DNA of 64,000 nt from the NCBI RefSeq assembly GCF_963675165.1, contig NC_087379.1, positions 3,476,201 through 3,540,200 of the forward strand. The letters run 5' to 3'. Every line of letters begins with the position of its first letter. Within the stretch, counting starts at the first letter, position 1. Origin of the DNA: Halichondria panicea. Lineage: Eukaryota; Porifera; Demospongiae; Suberitida; Halichondriidae. Positions 2,364-14,881 of the stretch are shown here, in pieces. The notes below the pieces were generated by a model. That model saw only the letters and a program-made list of their open reading frames with translations, was not told where the DNA came from and ran no database searches. Made by a program: the position numbers and the translations under genes.

Positions 2364-5300
2364 TTACTTGTTTCTCACATAGTAATCGTAATATAATCTC
2401 CTAAATTGCTCTAAGAAAATGAAAGTAAGCACTGTATGGGGGCCAAGTCGGGCGTAATATGGTGTGAACCCCTTCCAGAGACTAAAAATTCCTTCCTTCC
2501 GAACCAGCTGCTTCCACACATCCTATAATAAATGACAGTACATGTATTATGATAATATTATCCTCTAAAAATACTAGCATAATTATAACTACAGAGAAGA
2601 TAGAGGAGGAACAAAAAGAAAGAAAGAAGAGAGCAACTTAAAAAACTAGAGCACTAAAGTGCAAACCCTCGGCTGGTGACATGATATTATACATCCAGTG
2701 CGTATAGTATGTATGACTGAGCTGTCTAGCACAGCAACTATTAAAACCAGAGACACAGTGCATGGACTCAGGAGGCATGCTGAAACATTTGAGAACAAAG
2801 TGGAGACATGCACTGGGGGGACTAGGATCACAGCAAAGAAGCCTGGAGTTTTAGAGAAGTATGGCTCCTTGGTGCTAGGATTCAGAGTCAGCAAAGAAGC
2901 CTCCCCAGACAACAAACCAGTCATGCACAATTCTAGCTTTCTACTGGAGTGACCCTTTTCCATTGTTTCTGGTACGTGATCCATAAGGCCACAGTGTAGC
3001 TAGCTCAACGTGCAAGTTCAATTAAGCTTTAACATCAAAATCTGCCACTATCACGTTTTTTTATGCTGTAAATGCAGCGTTATGATATACAGGTGAGTAG
3101 ACTCAGAATACACAAACAGGCTAACAAACCAACGGACTACTATACCCGCCGGCCGCGGGTAATAAAGTCTGCCGCGCTAAATCGCATGATCTACTACATG
3201 TATCTAAAACCAAGCCAAAAAACTATAGGCAGGGTTTTATCTAGTACGGGGGGGGGGCAGGGGTGAACCCCCAATGTTGTAGAATAACGACATCATCACA
3301 TTAATTAGTACTGTCTATGAGATGTGCAATATATGTAACTTGTTCTGTTCACTGATGCATTATGTCCAAGACTAGTACATTTGCAAGCGCTCTGGACTGA
3401 ATAAAATGTAATATCAGGAGTGCATGAATATATTCATGCACTCCTGATAATATTGATAGGTTGAGAGTCATTCTGGTATCAGGGTTCGGATAACCGAAGT
3501 TAGTTATTATAGCTAGTTTTTGGTGTGCACACGAGTTGGAAAGTATGTGGTTTTTTTGAGGAGAGAAAATAATAATACTATGATTGATTGTAGCTCTCAA
3601 AATTTGACACCACATCTTTATAATTATGCTTTGTCTATCTCAAGTGGGTGGGATGAAACGAAAACTTTATACATAAAAAGTACGTACCATGCTGCCATTG
3701 TACTCAGGAACTCCGTCCACAGTCTTCATGGTTTGAATTCTATAGGCAGTATGATGGTGACAGACATTAATTATGTACATGTACATGTAAACACACAATC
3801 TCAAATACAGTCATGTTAATTAACGTACATACATGATACAATGTTTATCCAGGAGGTTTGAAGGGCAGTATAATTATTTGCTTAGTATTATCAGAAGCAT
3901 AGTATTATCAGGAGCAGATTACAGAAGGAGCGTTTTATGTTGGGAATCACATCTCGTGCAAGTTTGCAAAGCATGACCTTATTTGCAAAACCGATAAGGT
4001 GATAATCATATGCGGGCGAGTGCTAATTGAGCTGATGGTGCACTTTATCAGAGCATAGGTCAATAAAGGTGAAAAGCTACAGCTCTAGCTAGCTACAGGC
4101 CTGGTAGTAAACCCTCTCTTTTAAGAACCCCAGTAAGACTCCCTACTGCAAAAACAAAACACCTAGTATGTGTTAGTCTAGGTATAGGATATGCTCCTCT
4201 TCAGAACTTTCTGTACCTCACCAATGACAGCCTCTTCCATGATGCATATACCAACATCCATCAAAGGTCTAGCTATTCGTTTTAGCTCTTTCTGGCTAAC
4301 ATACCTGCTGCACTACATACAAAATCCATTCATAATGATACTCACAGGCTGACCATGCACAGTCTGTAATTACCGCATATCTTTTAATTTATCGGACAGC
4401 AAAAAATATTTATTTTGGAAATTATCCGGGTAAAATTGGAACAAGCAAGCAGGTTAGAACGAATTAAAGCACTAGAGTGTCCATTGTATTAGAACAGCGA
4501 AAATTGCCCAAAAGAATGTCCGGGGTAATTAGAAGTGTCCGATAAATTAGTAGATATACGGTACATGTATGTACAATGTACACAGTACATAAACACTTTT
4601 CTTACAAACAATGCAGGGTTAGGAAAACACACGATTATGTAGAGTTAGACGCTCCTTCTGTAATCTGCTCATGGTATTATGTAGAACTTTGTTGGAGGTT
4701 TGTTGTGCTCAAGAAAGTACATACTGCTTGCTATATATCTGCTTAGTTTTCTCGTAGGGGGCCTAAAAGAGAAATTTGAAGCAAACATGCGCACATACCC
4801 AGCACTACTGATAGCTACAGCTGCTATGTTAGTGTAGAGCTTTCTTTTATTTGTGTGAAAAACACAAAATTGTAAGTTCTGTACCTCTATCTCCAATATT
4901 TATAACATGTTGGTTTCACAGAATTAAAGTGTGTTTTTATAACTGCATGGAACAAAGCATAATTATTTCCCAGCTCATAATGCAGTGAAGTAGTGGCAGC
5001 ACCATGAAACGTTTGTGTACCTCTCGTGCTCTAAGACACAACTTAGGTATTAGGAAGTGAAACACAAGTATCTTTTTCTGTCTTGTGTGATCGAAGAGAT
5101 GACATTTGAAGGAGTTGGGAAATAACAGACCTGTTATGGCTAGTACTGACACCCCCTTTGGAGCTCACTTCCTCATCACTCTAAAACATTAATAGCCTAG
5201 ATGTCTTGGTTGTCTCCTCAAGAGCACAGCTTGCCATATTACTTAAGCTATAAAATCTTAACTGACATTTTGCTCATTACACGCCCCGTTTTACTCATTA

Positions 5301-8300
5301 AACGCAACTAGCCTCATCCAACGGAAGTGCATGCTGGGCGTTGCCTATCACTCTCTTTCGTTTATCTATGGGTACACATACATGTAAGTGTTCTATCCTT
5401 GAAACTAAGAGGCAAAAAACACACATGACCAAACCTTGTTTTAGCAATGTCCACAGGCATAGATACCAAAGTAGTGACCAATCCACTTATCATACTTGAT
5501 CCAAAGTGACATTTAATATCGTCGACAAAGTAAGCTGCATTAGAGGTGAAAAATTGCATTGGAATTTACTCTAGCTCTTACAGGTTGTTAGCAAGAACTG
5601 TTTTGCTTGAGAATAAGTTGCAAGCTGAGCAGCATTTACAACCATTGCACGCAGCACAGTTGGTCCACAGCCCTGTGGAAGTAACGGCATGTTTTAAAAC
5701 GCACTATAGAAGCCATGCATATTATATCACTATAATTTATGACGTACTCTCCACAGAGTTCCAAGTCCTTCTTCTCGACTGATTCGAGCAAGGGCATCAA
5801 ACACATTCTTATACCCCCTTTGTTCACTGGGAGGAAGCCTGTACATCAGAATGTTACACGGTCAATAATTATAGTTATTCAGAAAACAGTGTAAACTGTG
5901 GATAAAATTTGACTCGCACCTGCCATCCGATGTCATCCGGATTAATGAAATCTCAGCTGGGGTACCGATAAGCGCACCTGTTGCACCAGCAATCATTCCT
6001 ACAAAGAGAAGAAATAAGTCGATGTGATCATGAGCATGAATTGAAGTTGTATCAACAGCAATGTATAAGCTAGCTATCCCTATTAGTGGAACCCCTCTAT
6101 AACAGACACCTTTGGGGAATAATGTTTTAGCAACTGGCCTTTATTCGGAGGTGGTTGTTAACAGAGGTTCCACTGTATATGAGTGTTACATAACGGGATT
6201 GACTATACGTTACATATTTACTTCTCTATCGTACATGTACGGTATCCCTCGATCTGCTCAATAGTCTCGTTTACACGAGGCCTTTTTTCCAGGTCTTTAA
6301 TCCAATCCTGAGCCTATCCACGTTTGTGTAAACGGTAATTAGACGAGTTCTATTGACCAGGTGTTTTTTCAGAAAACGAATGGCCTGGTCTCGAGGCTAG
6401 ACAACGAGTGTTATATACCGATTGGAATGAAAAATGCTTGCTACCTAAGCTACATGCATGTACCTCACCTTATAGATACAACTAGCTAACAAAAACGAAC
6501 AGCAAGCTTGTAGCCAGTGCTAACCTTCTAGCTCTTTGCACAAACTTGTCCATGCAAGTTCATGTCCAAGCAGTAAGCCCCACCCTTTCTCCAGCCTTCC
6601 TAGTTGTTAAGCGAGCTCCACCCATCTGTCCTGCTACCAACAAGTGTCATGCTTCTTCAGCTATAAAAATCAGTGTGCCCTAAAGGCAAGGAAGTTCATG
6701 GTAGTTAAACCCCACCCAGTTGCTATGCCATTGCAGTGCTAAAAAACACTAAAACAACAGGCAGCAATTGCAAGATCACTTTTAGGTCGCTAGAGCATCA
6801 TGTAGCCACACATTTTGCTGACACGACAATAAACACAGCACGTAATCGTTTATATGCAATTGCTAGTTTGTCATACGTACCACCACTGCTGACCGGCTGG
6901 TGACAACGGTACGACCTCAACTTACATGTAATTAGCTACGCACATGCATGTATTCATATACACTGTAAGGCTGCACATATAACTATGCTCGACCTAGGAA
7001 AAGTATGCAACTCCTGCCAGACCTACATCTCCTATTGTCAGGGGCGGATCTAGGATTCTTGATAGGGGGGAGCTAAAAATATTTTAACTCACGTACAATG
7101 TGTTTCCTGCATGACTCATCAATAATAATTATTGATGAGTCATGCAGGAAACAATTATTGTTCATGCTCAGTAATAAACTGGGTGTGGCCATGATAATGT
7201 AACCGTAGCTACGTGCTATCCAGTACATGCAGTGTGTTGATAGCTAGCTCTAGATTCTATTCTTCAGGCTTGTCATCAAGGCCAGGGGGGTGCTTAAGCC
7301 CCCAAAGCCCCCCACTGGATCCGCCCCTGATTGTAACCACATGCAAGGCGCTCCTGGCGCTCAACAATAACAATGCAGATAATGAATAACATTAGTACAT
7401 TATAATATAACCACTAATATGTTATTCATTGCTAATTTAAGATTTCAGTGGTTTAGTATACTGGACAGGAGTTGAGTACTCTTCCTAATGAACTCTTGTC
7501 TATAATTATACACATTGCTGTGGTGTTTAATCTCCTGCTATGAAAAAGATCAGGGCCAATGTTTAACAGGAAGCAGGAAGTAACCCTAAGGCATGCTGGT
7601 CACTCATGACTCAACAATAATCACAATAATCACAGCATGTGATCGTTACGTAATTACCAATCGCCAAATTCCATGCACGTCATACCTCCTCTGCTGACCC
7701 AGCGGGTCACATACATTTCCTTAATCTCACTATAAAATACATGGCGAGCAGGTACACTAGGGTTACATATTTCGAAACCAGGTTATACACACAGTATTTT
7801 TAGGCTTTCCTATCTAGGGCCAATGTTTAACAGGAAGCAGGAAGTAATCACTAAATAGGAAATGCCCTAATGTACCTGCTGGTCACACGCAACACTCAGG
7901 AAATAGCTACATTGTACACATACATGTATTCATATACTAGTTCTCTACGCATTAATTACCATTGGTGTACTATATCGGCATTGAATTTGGGTGGGCGTAA
8001 TCTCGGTGGAGTGTGGTATAATATTATGTTATATGTACTACACATTTACCCTCAACAGCATGGATACGCTTGATTCACTGAACTTACAGGTTTCACTGGA
8101 TTTCACTATACGATTACCTAAGCTACATTTTCACGCACCAAAAGCAATCTTTGTTAAAACACCAGGAGGCCTTCCATCAGAGCTGTATGGAAACACCATA
8201 CACTGACATAATTATTATATAGACAATGGAACATTACAGCAAATATGAGTCTTAATGGAATTAAATAAAGCTGTAGCTAATGGTGGGTAATATTTATGAT

Positions 8301-10120
8301 TATACCTGGAGAATCGATCGAACAAAGATTGGTAAACACCTAATCGTGTTGTACTGTAGGTAGCTTGGCGGAATAAACCAGCAGACAAACTGTGGATGAA
8401 AAAATATGAGCTTTGAACGAAGACATTCTTGCAATCAATCTCTTTACCCATTATAAAGAGCAAAAAATCCTTCAGTTCTGACTATCCTAACCAAAGCATG
8501 GAAGCTTGTTTTGTGAACACGATTTGCCCCACCTTCACCTACAAGAAAACAAACAAATTAATGGTAAGGGAACAACAGGAATCAACCCATTGCTAAGCCA
8601 CTTGGGAATCATAAAGGTTTTCCGAGATCTTACAGCGTACAGTATACGAGTGCTTGCAATTGCAATGCATAAATTGCAATGCATAGATAGCCTCACCGCT
8701 TAGCTGCATTCTATTCTTGACTAGGTCCAAGGGTTGAACAAACACAGTGGCTGCCATTCTGCACAACAAGCATGGTCACTAATCTATTTGCTACTTTGAT
8801 TATGGACGTGTCGAGTTTATCGCATACGATTAGAAGAAACAGATATCGCTTGCTCACTGAAAACGTCAATGAGCACACAAGCTACTGATCCAAGTAAAGC
8901 ACGTTGTCTGTGTACATCTGTGCACAGACTGTTTTAAGCAATTGTTCTAAGTTGAATGAATATTCATTCAGCGTCGAACTGCAGCAGAGGGAAGTTACAT
9001 GCAGTACCTTAAAGCCACACAGCTAGTTTATAGTTATTACTATTCGCAATAATAAATTGCTAACAGTCTCAGACTTCAACAGGACACAAAAAATGAAAAT
9101 TGGCTCCGCCAAAATTCGAAGAGTGCACACGGCATTCGTAAATGCCATTTACACTTACCACTGAGTTGCATACGATTCTTGATCAAGTCCAGAGGCTGAG
9201 TAACAAACACAGCCCCACACCTACACAAAGTCAATGAAATTCAATACTTGAGTATCACAGGAACCAGCAATCTAGAGACTACACCACTCTACTCATTCGC
9301 AGTGCACTCAACAGTTTAATACACTGTAGAATAGCCATATAAATATCCGCCATTACCACTTCAATATTGTCTGGCTTCTCCAAATACACACACTGCAAGG
9401 AACTGATCACAAATTAATAATAAACCCTTTTGCTGTGAACAAGTCAAAAGGATGCCAACCCTGGGTAAGTATATACACACACATGTATATTAACGAACAA
9501 ATAATAAAGACTGATGTATGTACTACATGTACATGTACGTAAAGGAGTAATATAATATGCATCTATATTAATTATACATGCTACTTATAGATACTTAGTC
9601 TTGTCAGCAAAAGTTTCAAGAGCCTCCTTTGCCAAGGTACATGTAGTTGGACTAAATTATACAAATAAGAACATCTAGCGAATGCAGAGCACATGCCTAT
9701 CAATACAGGTACCTTTGCATTTCAAGGCAAGGGATTATAGACTTATGTTCACATGCAACAGCTGTATTAATGGGCATGAATAGATTAGCTCCTATAATTA
9801 TAGAGAGTATTATAAATGTGTATTAGCTACGTGTAAAAACAGCCATAATGGTACATTTTAAAGGGCAGTTCGATCGACTGCAATACACAAACGTACGTAC
9901 ATCTACACACGTACATCTACACTAAAATTAATAAGTACATTGCAGTATATGTTACATTTCAGCTCCTACACAGGTTATCATACACTGCTACATGTACTTA
10001 CCCAGCAGTGCCACCTAACAGAAAGTTCACTGAACGAGGAAGTGAACCAGGAGGAATGCTTCCACCAGAGTTAACCTTCGAAGGAGCTGAATTTTCTTTC
10101 ACTGCCATAGCACCACTCAT
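2364..10120 (-). CDS. SLC25A11: mitochondrial 2-oxoglutarate/malate carrier homologue (SLC25A11-like), 11 coding exons
   Basis: Spliced gene read by eye. Exons 5' to 3': 10002-10120, 8697-8758 or 9159-9220 (alternative), 8448-8538, 8306-8389, 8139-8182, 5920-5998, 5748-5838, 5582-5672, 5435-5534, 3688-3739, 2364-2522. With one exon 2 the total is 972 bp, 323 residues plus TAA; vertebrate homologues have about 314. Every junction has GT/AG and phases agree. Seen: NFLLGGTAG near residue 32, QPLDLVKNRMQ (first carrier signature), GTPAEISLIRMTSDGR near 146 (second), SMPVDIAKTR near 246 (third), and GFTPYYARLGPHTVLTF close to the C-terminus, all as expected for this family. Known role: exchange of malate and 2-oxoglutarate across the inner mitochondrial membrane in the malate-aspartate shuttle; three repeats of two membrane helices. 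The start ATG at 10118-10120 gives a 30-residue leader; a TATAAAG word lies about 20 bp upstream, too close to call a promoter. The nearest transposon stack ends 137 bp upstream. Confidence 0.93.
3412..3449. repeat. perfect 38-bp palindrome in carrier intron
   Basis: TATCAGGAGTGCATGAATA is followed immediately by its exact reverse complement. It lies in the last intron of the carrier gene and could extrude as a hairpin with no loop. It may be the residue of a short inverted-repeat element. Confidence 0.9.
3912..4670. mobile_element. inverted-repeat element in a carrier intron carrying exon-like pieces
   Basis: GAGCAGATTACAGAAGGAGC at 3912-3931 is repeated in inverted orientation at 4651-4670, with partial matching beyond (AGTATTATCA / ATGGTATTAT). 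Inside, on the minus strand, one open block reads KELKRIARPLMDVGICIMEE followed by a GTACAG donor (about 4227-4300). After a TTTTTTGCAG acceptor a second block reads GSLTGVLKREGLLPGL and stops (about 4092-4140). Neither belongs to the carrier, whose exons are accounted for. I do not recognise the protein. Captured host exons or a nested gene are both possible. Confidence 0.5.
4373..4561. mobile_element. small TA-flanked inverted-repeat element (mariner-like MITE)
   Basis: TA then CCGCATATC at the left; GATATACGG then TA at the right. Internal arms include TTATCGGACA and TGTCCGATAA. A related sequence is at 26518-26640 (CCGTATATCTATCGGACACT). TA flanks fit the Tc1/mariner pattern; no transposase is present. 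It is nested inside the 3912-4670 element. Confidence 0.6.
7039..7329. mobile_element. CAGGGGC-ended element 1, 5-bp target duplication ATTGT
   Basis: The left end CAGGGGCGGATCTAG and right end CTGGATCCGCCCCTG are inverted copies, flanked on both sides by ATTGT (7034-7038 and 7330-7334). It lies in the largest carrier intron. A perfect palindrome sits inside (7101-7153). Two further elements with the same end and 5-bp duplications are at 10781-11636 and 13299-13657. The ends resemble hAT-type CAG ends, but that assignment is an inference. Confidence 0.8.
7101..7153. repeat. perfect 24-bp-arm hairpin
   Basis: TGTTTCCTGCATGACTCATC and four further bases are mirrored exactly after a 5-base spacer, ending GATGAGTCATGCAGGAAACA. 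It lies inside the 7039-7329 element. Nearby intron sequence at 7550-7860 repeats words such as CAATGTTTAACAGGAAGCAGGAAGTAA twice but has no gene. Confidence 0.9.
8697..8758 (-). CDS. SLC25A11-like alternative exon 2b
   Basis: Also 62 bp, with acceptor TGTGCAG and donor GTGAGGC, reading MAATVFVQPLDLVKNRMQ then LSG. Phase is identical to exon 2a. Because 62 is not a multiple of 3, including both exons, or skipping both, would shift the frame, so only one can be used per functional transcript. This copy is nearer the vertebrate carrier sequence (GMGATVFVQPLDLVKNRMQ region). Confidence 0.88.
9159..9220 (-). CDS. SLC25A11-like alternative exon 2a
   Basis: A 62-bp exon between acceptor TTTGTGTAG and donor GTAAGTG. 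It reads CGAVFVTQPLDLIKNRMQ then LSG and so carries the first carrier signature P-x-D-x-x-K. It starts with one base completing a Gly codon from exon 1 (GG+G) and ends with one base of the next Gly codon, exactly like exon 2b. The coding sequence differs from 2b at many third positions and a few residues (Cys-Gly versus Met-Ala at the start, Thr versus none-equivalent Val/Gln spacing, Ile for Val), so it is not a recent copy error. Both versions keep the motif intact. Confidence 0.85.
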
Positions 10121-10266: not shown

Positions 10267-11770
10267 CAGAGGAGGGAGGACACGATTAACCTTAGCTCTA
10301 ATTAGCTAATTATCGCGACCTTTTAATTACATTCTTTGAACAATTCATCTTTTCTTTCTTTATAACCTCTACATATTGGAGCCTTTTCTCCTACTAGAGA
10401 CTAAGAGGTACCCCTATGGCCAAGTTGTCAGGACCTGAAGGTAATAGGACCTATATAAGAAGCACCTCAAGTACTCCTATCTCTAAGATCCCTGTGAGAA
10501 GCATCCCAGGCAGTCTGATCTTGTCTCTGTGAGAAGCACTCTTGATCCTGGAGACAGGATCCCTATGAGGAGCACCCCAGGCACTTCTGTCTCCAAGATC
10601 CCTGTGAGAAACACCCCAGGCACTCCTGTCTCTGTGATAAAGCTGCAACATGGAATTGTTTAGTTCAGAGTGTCTCCAACATGAAGAACATCAATGACAC
10701 TAACAGTCTCAGCTTCTAGCACCCCTTTATTTGTATGGTTTGCTCTGTGCCTGCAAGAATTGCCTGTCACTCATACTGCACAGGGGCATAGCTAGACATT
10801 TACTAAAGGGGTTTCTGAAGAATTTTGGACCACGCCCACTTCCGGTGACACGCCCCTTAATTATACCGGTTACACCCCTTATGGCTGCATTTTTTTAGAA
10901 GTCGTAGCTTCATTGACAGTGGGCATATGAGCTCTGAGGTTGGTGGCTGAGAATCAGATTGTGGTGAGACTGCATATAGGTACTAGACTCGCCAGCCAGC
11001 CCTTGGGAAAGGGACTGGTCAAACTCCGTGTAGAGACTCGTGTAACGTTTGCCACGATATTTGTGGCAACTAACCGCATGCGGTTACCGCAAGATCAATG
11101 ATAGTGACGTTTCACTAGAAAACTCTATGTATCACATGCAGTATACTGACGTCACGAAAACCGCAGCCACTTAAAATATTTTCTGATATGCTGACTGTGC
11201 AACACAAGTCTCAACACAGAGTTTGACCAGTCTATAATATCTACTGTTCGCCTGCAACAGTGACGGCTTGCGAGTCTATATAGGTACATGCAGTCTGGAG
11301 TCTGAGCATGCAGTAGAGGAACTGGGCTGACAATCAGGTCTCTTATCTTGGATTGCAGAAGCTAAACTAGTATTAATGATAGGTATTGAAATAAATCCAG
11401 GCTAGATATCAATCCATACTCTTGCTAGTCTCCAGCCATTAGCAGTATACACTGTAAAATACAGTCTGGAGTCTGACTCTGAGCAGTAGTAGAGGAACTG
11501 GGCTGATCTTGGTCTCTTATCTTGGATTGCAGAAGGTAACTAATAGGCACAATAAAAGCACATGATCAGCCCCACCCATTTTTCAGCAAGCAAGGGGGTT
11601 TCTGGGCAACTAGGAAACCATTAAGCTACGCCCCTGCTGCAGTACTGTTCTGTGTGTCCCAATATGTAGAGGTTATAAAGAAAGAAAAGATGAATCGTTC
11701 AAAGAATGTAATTAAAATCGCGATGATTAGCTAATTTAGAGCTAAGGTTAATCGTGTCCTCCCTCCTCTG
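10267..11770. mobile_element. non-autonomous Mutator-like element, family A, copy 2, 9-bp target duplication
   Basis: Begins CAGAGGAGGGAGGACACGAT and ends with the inverted CCTCCTCTG. It is flanked by GGAACGCCG at 10258-10266 and 11771-11779. The uninterrupted target ATATGGAACGCCGTTTGCGAC is present at 33940-33960, so the insertion can be read directly. Arms exceed 100 bp. The minisatellite core spans about 10385-10640. A second element (10781-11636) is inserted in it. Long inverted arms plus 9-bp duplications are the known pattern of Mutator-like elements; no transposase is present. Confidence 0.88.
10781..11636. mobile_element. CAGGGGC-ended element 2 nested in family A copy 2, target duplication CTGCA
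   Basis: Starts CAGGGGCATAGCTAG and ends TAAGCTACGCCCCTG, flanked by CTGCA at 10776-10780 and 11637-11641. The empty site is seen in sister copies (CATACTACAGTACTG near 14748 and 1870). Interior has duplicated words (CAGTCTGGAGTCTGA twice) and a segment shared with 895-1035 (CCGCATGCGGT and CAACAGTGACG), but no coding sequence. Confidence 0.85.
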
Positions 11771-12000: not shown

Positions 12001-12862
12001 TGATTTATGAGACAATGTTTCTGCACGGTTTCTGTCGCTGAATCCAGGGGGGCTTTGGGGGCTTGAGGAGCACCCCCCTGTCCTCCCAGACAACCATGAA
12101 ACTAATCGTATCACTCAGTAGCTAGCTAGCTAACTCTATCTCATTGACACAACGATTACAAGTCATGACCACGCCCAATTGAGCATGTGCAATCAGTATT
12201 GCCATTCCAATGTTGTTATGTAATGCTAATTGCATGCATAATAGATCCTCTGCACTATCCCAGTCACCTCTTGCTCCACTGAGAGATACTGAGAAGCAAT
12301 GACTAACACTAGAATGACTGGACATCCCCATTGTGATTGACCAGTTTGCTAGGATGTACCCCAGAAGAATAGTGCATGGAGATCCTACAAGATGACTGAC
12401 TCATAATTATGTCTTATTATCACGCTATGCATGCATTAGATCCCATTTGAGTGTATTTAGCAGGGAAATATGAGCTATAGTACCGGTGTAGAAGCGATAT
12501 GGGGCTCCCCCCCATTTCAGGGCCCCCGGGCCCTAAAACGCTAGCGATTTGGGGCCCCCCCACGGCCCTATTTCACTAGCGCTTTGAGGCCCCTCCAGCG
12601 ATATGGGGCCCCCCTTATAACTTGCAGTGTAGATGGTATCTATGCTTGTAGCCTCAGCCTCATGGTCTAAGTAAATCTAGATGTCCCTTGCTGGCTAGAT
12701 CTTGCACAGTACTTACTCATAATTAGCTCTCTTGCTGACTAAGTGCAGAGTTTAATAACACCATGACTTGCAGGTGCTATTGGCTAATGTTAGGCTAGCT
12801 ATACCAGAGCAGGAAGATATAGATCTATCCTCAATACTTTAACTGAACTCGAGAAAGTTGTT

Positions 12863-13062
12863 NNNNNNNNNNNNNNNNNNNNNNNNNNNNNNNNNNNNNN
12901 NNNNNNNNNNNNNNNNNNNNNNNNNNNNNNNNNNNNNNNNNNNNNNNNNNNNNNNNNNNNNNNNNNNNNNNNNNNNNNNNNNNNNNNNNNNNNNNNNNNN
13001 NNNNNNNNNNNNNNNNNNNNNNNNNNNNNNNNNNNNNNNNNNNNNNNNNNNNNNNNNNNNNN
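12863..13062. other. assembly gap, 200 N
   Basis: Exactly 200 N, which suggests a placeholder or estimated scaffold gap. An ORF called across it is not real. Confidence 0.99.
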
Positions 13063-13298
13063 CTGCTTGTATTCTCAGTAGTATATGCTCAGCCTATATG
13101 AATGCATGCATGCATGTGCTGTGTATACAATGGCTATGTGCTGCCACACTGTAACGTAGGCCTTATTTTGCACATAATTATGGCTGCCTTATACTGTTAT
13201 CGTCAGTGACCAAGCAGCACAGATTATAGGCTAGTCTGTATTGGAGTTTAGATCTACATAAACATTATAGCCATTGATTCTCAACTCAACCTCCTATT

Positions 13299-14289: not shown

Positions 14290-14881
14290 CAGAGCTAGAG
14301 GAGGGAGGACACGATTAACCTTAGCTCTAATTAGCTAATTATCGCGACCTTTTAAGCAAAGTAAGCCTTTTCTCCTACTGGAGGTACCCCTATGGACAAG
14401 TTGTCAGGACCTGAAGGTAATAGGACCCCTATAAGAAGCACCTCAAGTACTCCTATCTCTAAGATCCCTGTGAGAAGCATCCCAGGCACTCTGAGTCTGA
14501 TCTTGTCTCTGTGAGAAGCACTCTTGATCTTGGAGACAGGATCCCTATGAGGAGCACCCCAGGCACTCCTGTCTCCAAGATCCCTGTGAGAAGCACCCCA
14601 GGCACTCCTGTCTCTGTGATAAAGCTGCAACATGGTTCAGAGTGTCTCCAACATGAAGAATATCAATGACACTAACAGTCTCAGCTTCTAGCACCCCTTT
14701 ATTTGTATGGTTTGCTCTGTGCCTGCAAGAATTGCCTGTCACTCATACTACAGTACTGTTCCGTGTGTCCCAATACGTAGAGGTTATAAAGAAAGAAAAG
14801 ATGAATCGTTCAAGAACGTAATTAAAAGGTCGCGATAATTAGCTGATTAGAGCTAAGGTTAATCGTGTCCTCCCTCCTCTG
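14290..14881. mobile_element. non-autonomous Mutator-like element, family A, copy 3, 9-bp target duplication
   Basis: Flanked by GATCCAGTC at 14281-14289 and 14882-14890. Begins CAGAG(CTAG)AGGAGGGAGG with a small insertion in the tip, and ends CCTCCCTCCTCTG. Arms and the GAGAAGCACCCCAGGCACTC minisatellite (about 14370-14630) match copies 1 and 2. Short minus ORFs reading HRDLGDRSAWG are translations of the minisatellite. Confidence 0.88.

Follow-up and report, generated by a model that had tools for sequence, protein, structure and literature searches.

Tandem exons that are exchanged for one another are rare, and almost half of the human and fly genes that have them encode membrane proteins (PMC9741552). 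Such an exchange can swap a pore (PMC3557258). The exon pairs 15a/15b and 31a/31b of NALCN resemble the pair described here in that tandem exons exchange a path-lining piece of a membrane protein (PMC3557258), although NALCN is an ion channel whose filter residues are known. Sponges are described as having a single NALCN exon 15a (PMC3557258), so the exon duplication in that gene came later. Exons 4a and 4b of OGDH are also mutually exclusive, belong to 2-oxoglutarate metabolism, and have a joint length that is not a multiple of 3 (PMC7969005).

Within the mitochondrial carrier family, the phosphate carrier gene SLC25A3 has tandem alternative exons, III-A and III-B, that reach into the first helix, and this pair has been counted among mutually exclusive exons (PMC5740500). 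The III-A and III-B isoforms differ in tissue pattern (PMC7226361) and in kinetics (PMC7611780). A patient change in exon 3A falls at cavity position 14, which is taken to be in helix 1. The oxodicarboxylate carrier has been reported as alternatively spliced (PMC2765418). Other SLC25 splice forms are known as well (PMC7504413), and alternative splicing in this family is therefore not in itself surprising. For SLC25A11, the oxoglutarate/malate carrier (OGC), no second version of exon 2 is described among the matches listed in our search of the open literature, in agreement with the original prediction, which knew of none. Exon exchange is known in SLC25A3 of the same family, but we found no description of it for OGC.

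The window analyzed here is a stretch of 64,000 nucleotides from the sponge Halichondria panicea (G000:C3:3476201-3540200). From the raw sequence we rebuilt a complete SLC25A11 gene on its minus strand, running from 10120 to 2364. The gene consists of exon 1, one of two exons 2 (here called 2A and 2B), and exons 3 to 11, and every intron is GT-AG. Its features are as follows.

10002..10120, minus strand: exon 1 (coding part); ATG at 10120, ends ...LLGGTAG, donor GG/gtaagt
9159..9220, minus strand: exon 2A; 62 nt, encodes (G)CGAVFVTQPLDLIKNRMQLS, variant helix 1
8759..9158, minus strand: intron between 2A and 2B; 400 nt, fold better than that of shuffled sequences (100 shuffles, z -3.04)
8697..8758, minus strand: exon 2B; 62 nt, encodes (G)MAATVFVQPLDLVKNRMQLS
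8448..8538, minus strand: exon 3
8306..8389, minus strand: exon 4
8139..8182, minus strand: exon 5
5920..5998, minus strand: exon 6; second signature PAEISL, with the OGC-type leucine replacing K/R
5748..5838, minus strand: exon 7
5582..5672, minus strand: exon 8
5435..5534, minus strand: exon 9; third signature PVDIAK
3688..3739, minus strand: exon 10
2364..2522, minus strand: exon 11; stop codon TAA at 2366-2364

The original prediction had assigned the gene to an SLC25A11-type carrier, and this assignment is borne out by three carrier repeats, the signature residues, and the OGC leucine. Pfam Mito_carr matches three stretches of the protein, with E values of 1.1e-66 for the 2B form and 2.4e-66 for the 2A form (the query protein lacked one serine). 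The second PX[DE]XX[KR] motif reads PAEISL, and the leucine at this place, L144, is absolutely conserved within the OGC subfamily (PMC9104175). Cysteine mutants of D43 and K46 (helix 1), E141 (helix 3), and D241 and K244 (helix 5) are less than 4% active (PMC9104175). The OGC key residues are present in both forms, in PLDLIK (2A) or PLDLVK (2B), PAEISL, and PVDIAK. Based on the PAEISL leucine and the kept PLDxxK and PVDIAK residues, both versions are OGCs by sequence, and oxoglutarate/malate exchange is predicted for each. The closest relatives with a solved structure are UCP2 and UCP1.

Between exon 1 (end 10002) and exon 3 (start 8538) lie two adjacent, homologous 62-nt exons, 2A (9220-9159) and 2B (8758-8697), whose starts are separated by 462 nt. 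Each has AG before it and GT after it, and they share an identical phase and contain no stop, so the reconstruction agrees with the earlier claim of two 62-bp exons with intact signals and equal phases. The junction positions given earlier (10002, 9220, 8758, 9159, 8697, and 8538) are all correct. Translation gives GCGAVFVTQPLDLIKNRMQLS for 2A and GMAATVFVQPLDLVKNRMQLS for 2B. In an ungapped comparison the two exons share 36 of 62 bases, and seven of their residues differ, six of them before QP, which is where the first residues had been predicted to differ. We also scanned the introns for stop-free AG...GT stretches of like length and compared these with the inner exons (2A, 2B, and 3 to 10). 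Only 8 of 679 candidates exceeded 0.16 of the self score, and all of them were 2A, 2B, or alternative-donor forms of 2A. Among the best 12 of the 679, the cross matches between 2A and 2B reached 0.42 to 0.68 and the next candidate reached 0.16. The resemblance of 2A and 2B is not due to chance.

Exon 2B carries what we take to be the usual OGC helix-1 sequence. It also opens with A/ATG, an in-frame ATG that is its first whole codon, which would suit a gene in which 2B has its own promoter and 2A is used with exon 1. Against such an alternative start, 2B has an AG acceptor and matches the phase of exon 1 exactly, and exon 1 joined to 2B yields the OGC sequence that we presume to be the usual one. 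We regard an alternative start as very unlikely.

Either exon alone, together with the other exons, gives an open frame of 323 amino acids that ends at the TAA in exon 11. When both exons are joined, a stop is met inside 2B after 72 codons, and when neither is used, a stop is met at the border of exons 1 and 3 after 40 codons. The earlier claim that using both or neither breaks the frame is thus confirmed, with stops at codons 73 and 41. These stops lie many junctions upstream of the last exon. Early stops placed in this way are the usual targets of nonsense-mediated decay.

The differences between 2A and 2B have a pattern that fits selection on both copies (Nei-Gojobori counts). Over the 21 codons there are 26 base differences, and 14 residues are identical (pS 0.93, pN 0.26). 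Over the last 13 codons, QPLDL[IV]KNRMQLS, pS is 1.15, which is saturated, while pN is 0.06; a single residue of the 13 differs, and 10 of the 11 base differences fall in codons that keep their residue. In neutral simulations of 2B, 12 of the last 13 residues were kept with 11 changes in 0 of 200,000 runs, and for the whole exon, 14 of 21 residues were kept with no stop in 1 of 50,000 runs; these simulations place all change on a single branch. The probability of at most one amino acid change would be 0.17, 0.016, or 0.004 if the neutral branch had received only 3, 5, or 6, respectively, of the 11 changes. Because the synonymous sites are saturated, an unconstrained 2A would have had time for more residue change, and because residues were kept meanwhile, both copies seem to have been held by selection for a long time. 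This rests on two compared sequences and is not proof. It also depends on branch length, since 2A can be cleared of neutral decay only when a reasonable proportion of the changes took place on its own branch. Beyond the exon, a repeat search found that the likeness continues for 5 bases at the donor side and then ends, as is expected of an old duplication.

These counts bear on whether 2A is a relic duplicate that is never or rarely spliced in and is open by chance. An open frame alone is not rare, since 0.54 of the neutral whole-exon simulations were stop-free, and 2A is the copy that departs from what we take to be the usual OGC sequence. With 3 of the 11 differences on the 2A branch, chance conservation would have the probability of 0.17 given above. 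A relic, however, would not be expected to conserve its last 13 codons to a degree (residue kept at 10 of 11 base differences) that no simulation equaled. The 2A donor, moreover, is better than the 2B donor (7 of 9 matches to the U1 consensus, equal to exon 1 and best of the 11 donors, versus 5 of 9), and the indels described below seem to balance in frame. We consider a relic quite improbable. The same conservation bears on a productive/unproductive switch, in which regulated double inclusion or double skipping lowers carrier output and the difference between isoforms is minor. The early stops in transcripts with both exons or neither, many junctions before the last exon, would serve such a switch. 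A poison exon, however, would be free to change in protein sequence, whereas 2A and 2B have both conserved theirs, and we give this possibility very little weight.

The explanation that we prefer, with a probability of about 0.77, is that 2A and 2B arose by an old tandem duplication of the SLC25A11 helix-1 exon and are used as mutually exclusive exons to make two OGC isoforms. The gene, its exons, and its frames are observed directly, as is the pattern of change. For the splicing choice, the decay of the wrong forms, and a functional difference between the isoforms, we infer the following sequence of steps. The helix-1 exon would have been duplicated in tandem long ago. Each productive transcript would now include 2A or 2B, while transcripts with both or neither would meet an early stop, yield no carrier, and be expected to be destroyed. 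The result would be two oxoglutarate-type carriers, alike except in helix 1, one usual (2B) and one variant (2A), so that one gene probably encodes two versions of the transporter. In the 2A form, the first part of helix 1 would be altered and the part with the PxDxxK gate motif kept. The two carriers probably have different rates, affinities, or substrate preferences, by cell or by condition. If the exons are used in this way, OGC would join SLC25A3 among mitochondrial carriers in which splicing swaps the first helix, and its exchange presumably arose independently, in an early animal branch. The carrier concerned serves the malate-aspartate shuttle.

Before QP, the residues that differ (2A/2B) are C/M, G/A, V/T, F/V, V/F, and T/V, and after it they are I/V. 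An 11-nt exact match, CTGTGTTTGTT, is present in both exons 3 nt out of register, and shuffling the first 36 nt of 2A produced a match of this length with an in-frame shift in 21 of 200,000 trials. The simplest reading is that a three-base loss before the match and a three-base gain after it (or the reverse in 2B) would have moved VFV by one position; a free aligner sets the gaps slightly otherwise, at 4, 3, and 1 bases. Since the match is 3 nt out of register, in-frame indels seem to be balanced, with the length of the exon and of the helix kept.

Position 22 in ADP/ATP carrier numbering lies in the cavity and is lysine in that carrier and aspartate in UCP1. It is T in 2B and V in 2A, and 2A has T at position 25. 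This genome's DIC-like carrier (SAGAAACTHPLD), UCP1, and UCP2 likewise have T at 25. Of the nine residues that precede P, 2A has 3, 3, and 3 in common with DIC, UCP2, and UCP1, respectively, compared with 1, 1, and 2 for 2B; nine residues are too few for proof, and we treat this likeness only as a hint. It is possible, though unlikely, that the loss of T at 22 and the T at 25 shift the 2A form toward another preference, nearer that of the dicarboxylate carrier or the uncoupling proteins. If so, splicing of one helix would switch mitochondrial exchange between two sets of substrates.

DIC was also considered as the source of 2A and was rejected: read by eye, its helix-1 exon ends after PLDLLK and lacks KNRMQLSG. 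The DIC-like (SLC25A10-type) region (G000:C17:4780900-4785000, L005) contains a tandem repeat at about 2,600 to 3,050 of the locus, with the repeated frame SLSVLLGRGLLSRYLVKCAARQGLTLPLPR. In searches of this genome with the 2A and 2B peptides, each has the other as its second match. No donor of 2A was found elsewhere in the genome, the next carriers having E values of 0.039 and 0.139 with the 2A peptide; for the 2B peptide, the next carriers have E values of 0.206 and 0.309. Protein searches of the genome found no second OGC locus. The 1,463-bp interval 8539-10001 matched only itself in a genome search that skips very common words. Degenerate patterns for OGC gave 0 matches in prokaryote and virus collections, which exclude animals by design, and in protein searches of prokaryote genomes and viruses, again with no animals included, 36 and 8 stretches fit the pattern and none was a relative; given the make-up of these collections, neither outcome is evidence of absence.

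SLC25A3 differs from the present case in being another carrier and in that it appears in this genome as two tandem gene copies rather than with tandem exons, so exon duplication is not the sole route for carriers in this genome. The two SLC25A3-like copies (G000:C13:1999900-2005400, L006) lie about 3.5 kb apart, and their helix-1 stretches are nearly identical (GGILSCGLTHTAVVPLD[LI]VK).

Mutual exclusion can be enforced by reading frame with decay, by a U2/U12 mismatch, by RNA structure, or by a short distance between donor and branch point (PMC7969005). Of these, frame with decay fits this gene, and no second mechanism was found in the checks described next. All 11 donors are GT and all 11 acceptors are AG, of the common kind. 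No U12-type site was seen among these 22 sites, judged by the U12 consensus. In OGDH, exclusion depends on distant branch points located close to the donor of an intron of restricted size (PMC7969005), whereas the intron between 2A and 2B has 400 nt, and an additional AG lies 18 nt before the AG of the 2B acceptor; a distant branch point is thus not indicated.

Pairing between introns was not detected in whole-intron duplex energies, which were matched or beaten by 68, 71, and 88 of 100 shuffles, in a crude test that would miss short selector-type paired sites. Folds compared with shuffles gave z -1.88 around 2A, 0.43 around 2B, and -0.49 for the next intron. One local structure lies at the 2A donor.

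9115..9165, minus strand: putative hairpin that extends into the donor of 2A; -16.8 kcal/mol

In this 51-nt cut, which was picked after the hairpin had been seen, z is -2.97 and 1 of 200 shuffles is as good. A 76-nt cut gives z -1.08, with 30 of 200 shuffles as good, and two further cuts of the donor region give z -2.26 and 0.20. Because the 2A donor is stronger than the 2B donor, use of 2B may require a brake on 2A, and we propose that the hairpin may be such a brake. An inverted pair (15 nt, 80%) between the 2A donor and a stretch before exon 3, which may be a chance match, is among the 25 listed of 31 inverted pairs in the interval.

Elsewhere in the window, a repeated element is present on the minus strand at 10451-10651, at 14352-14633, and at about 1480-1900. 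The frame MLQLYHRDRSAWG is found in two copies, and the third copy was spotted by eye. One copy lies just upstream of the start of the carrier gene. A run of N occupies about 12860-13070.
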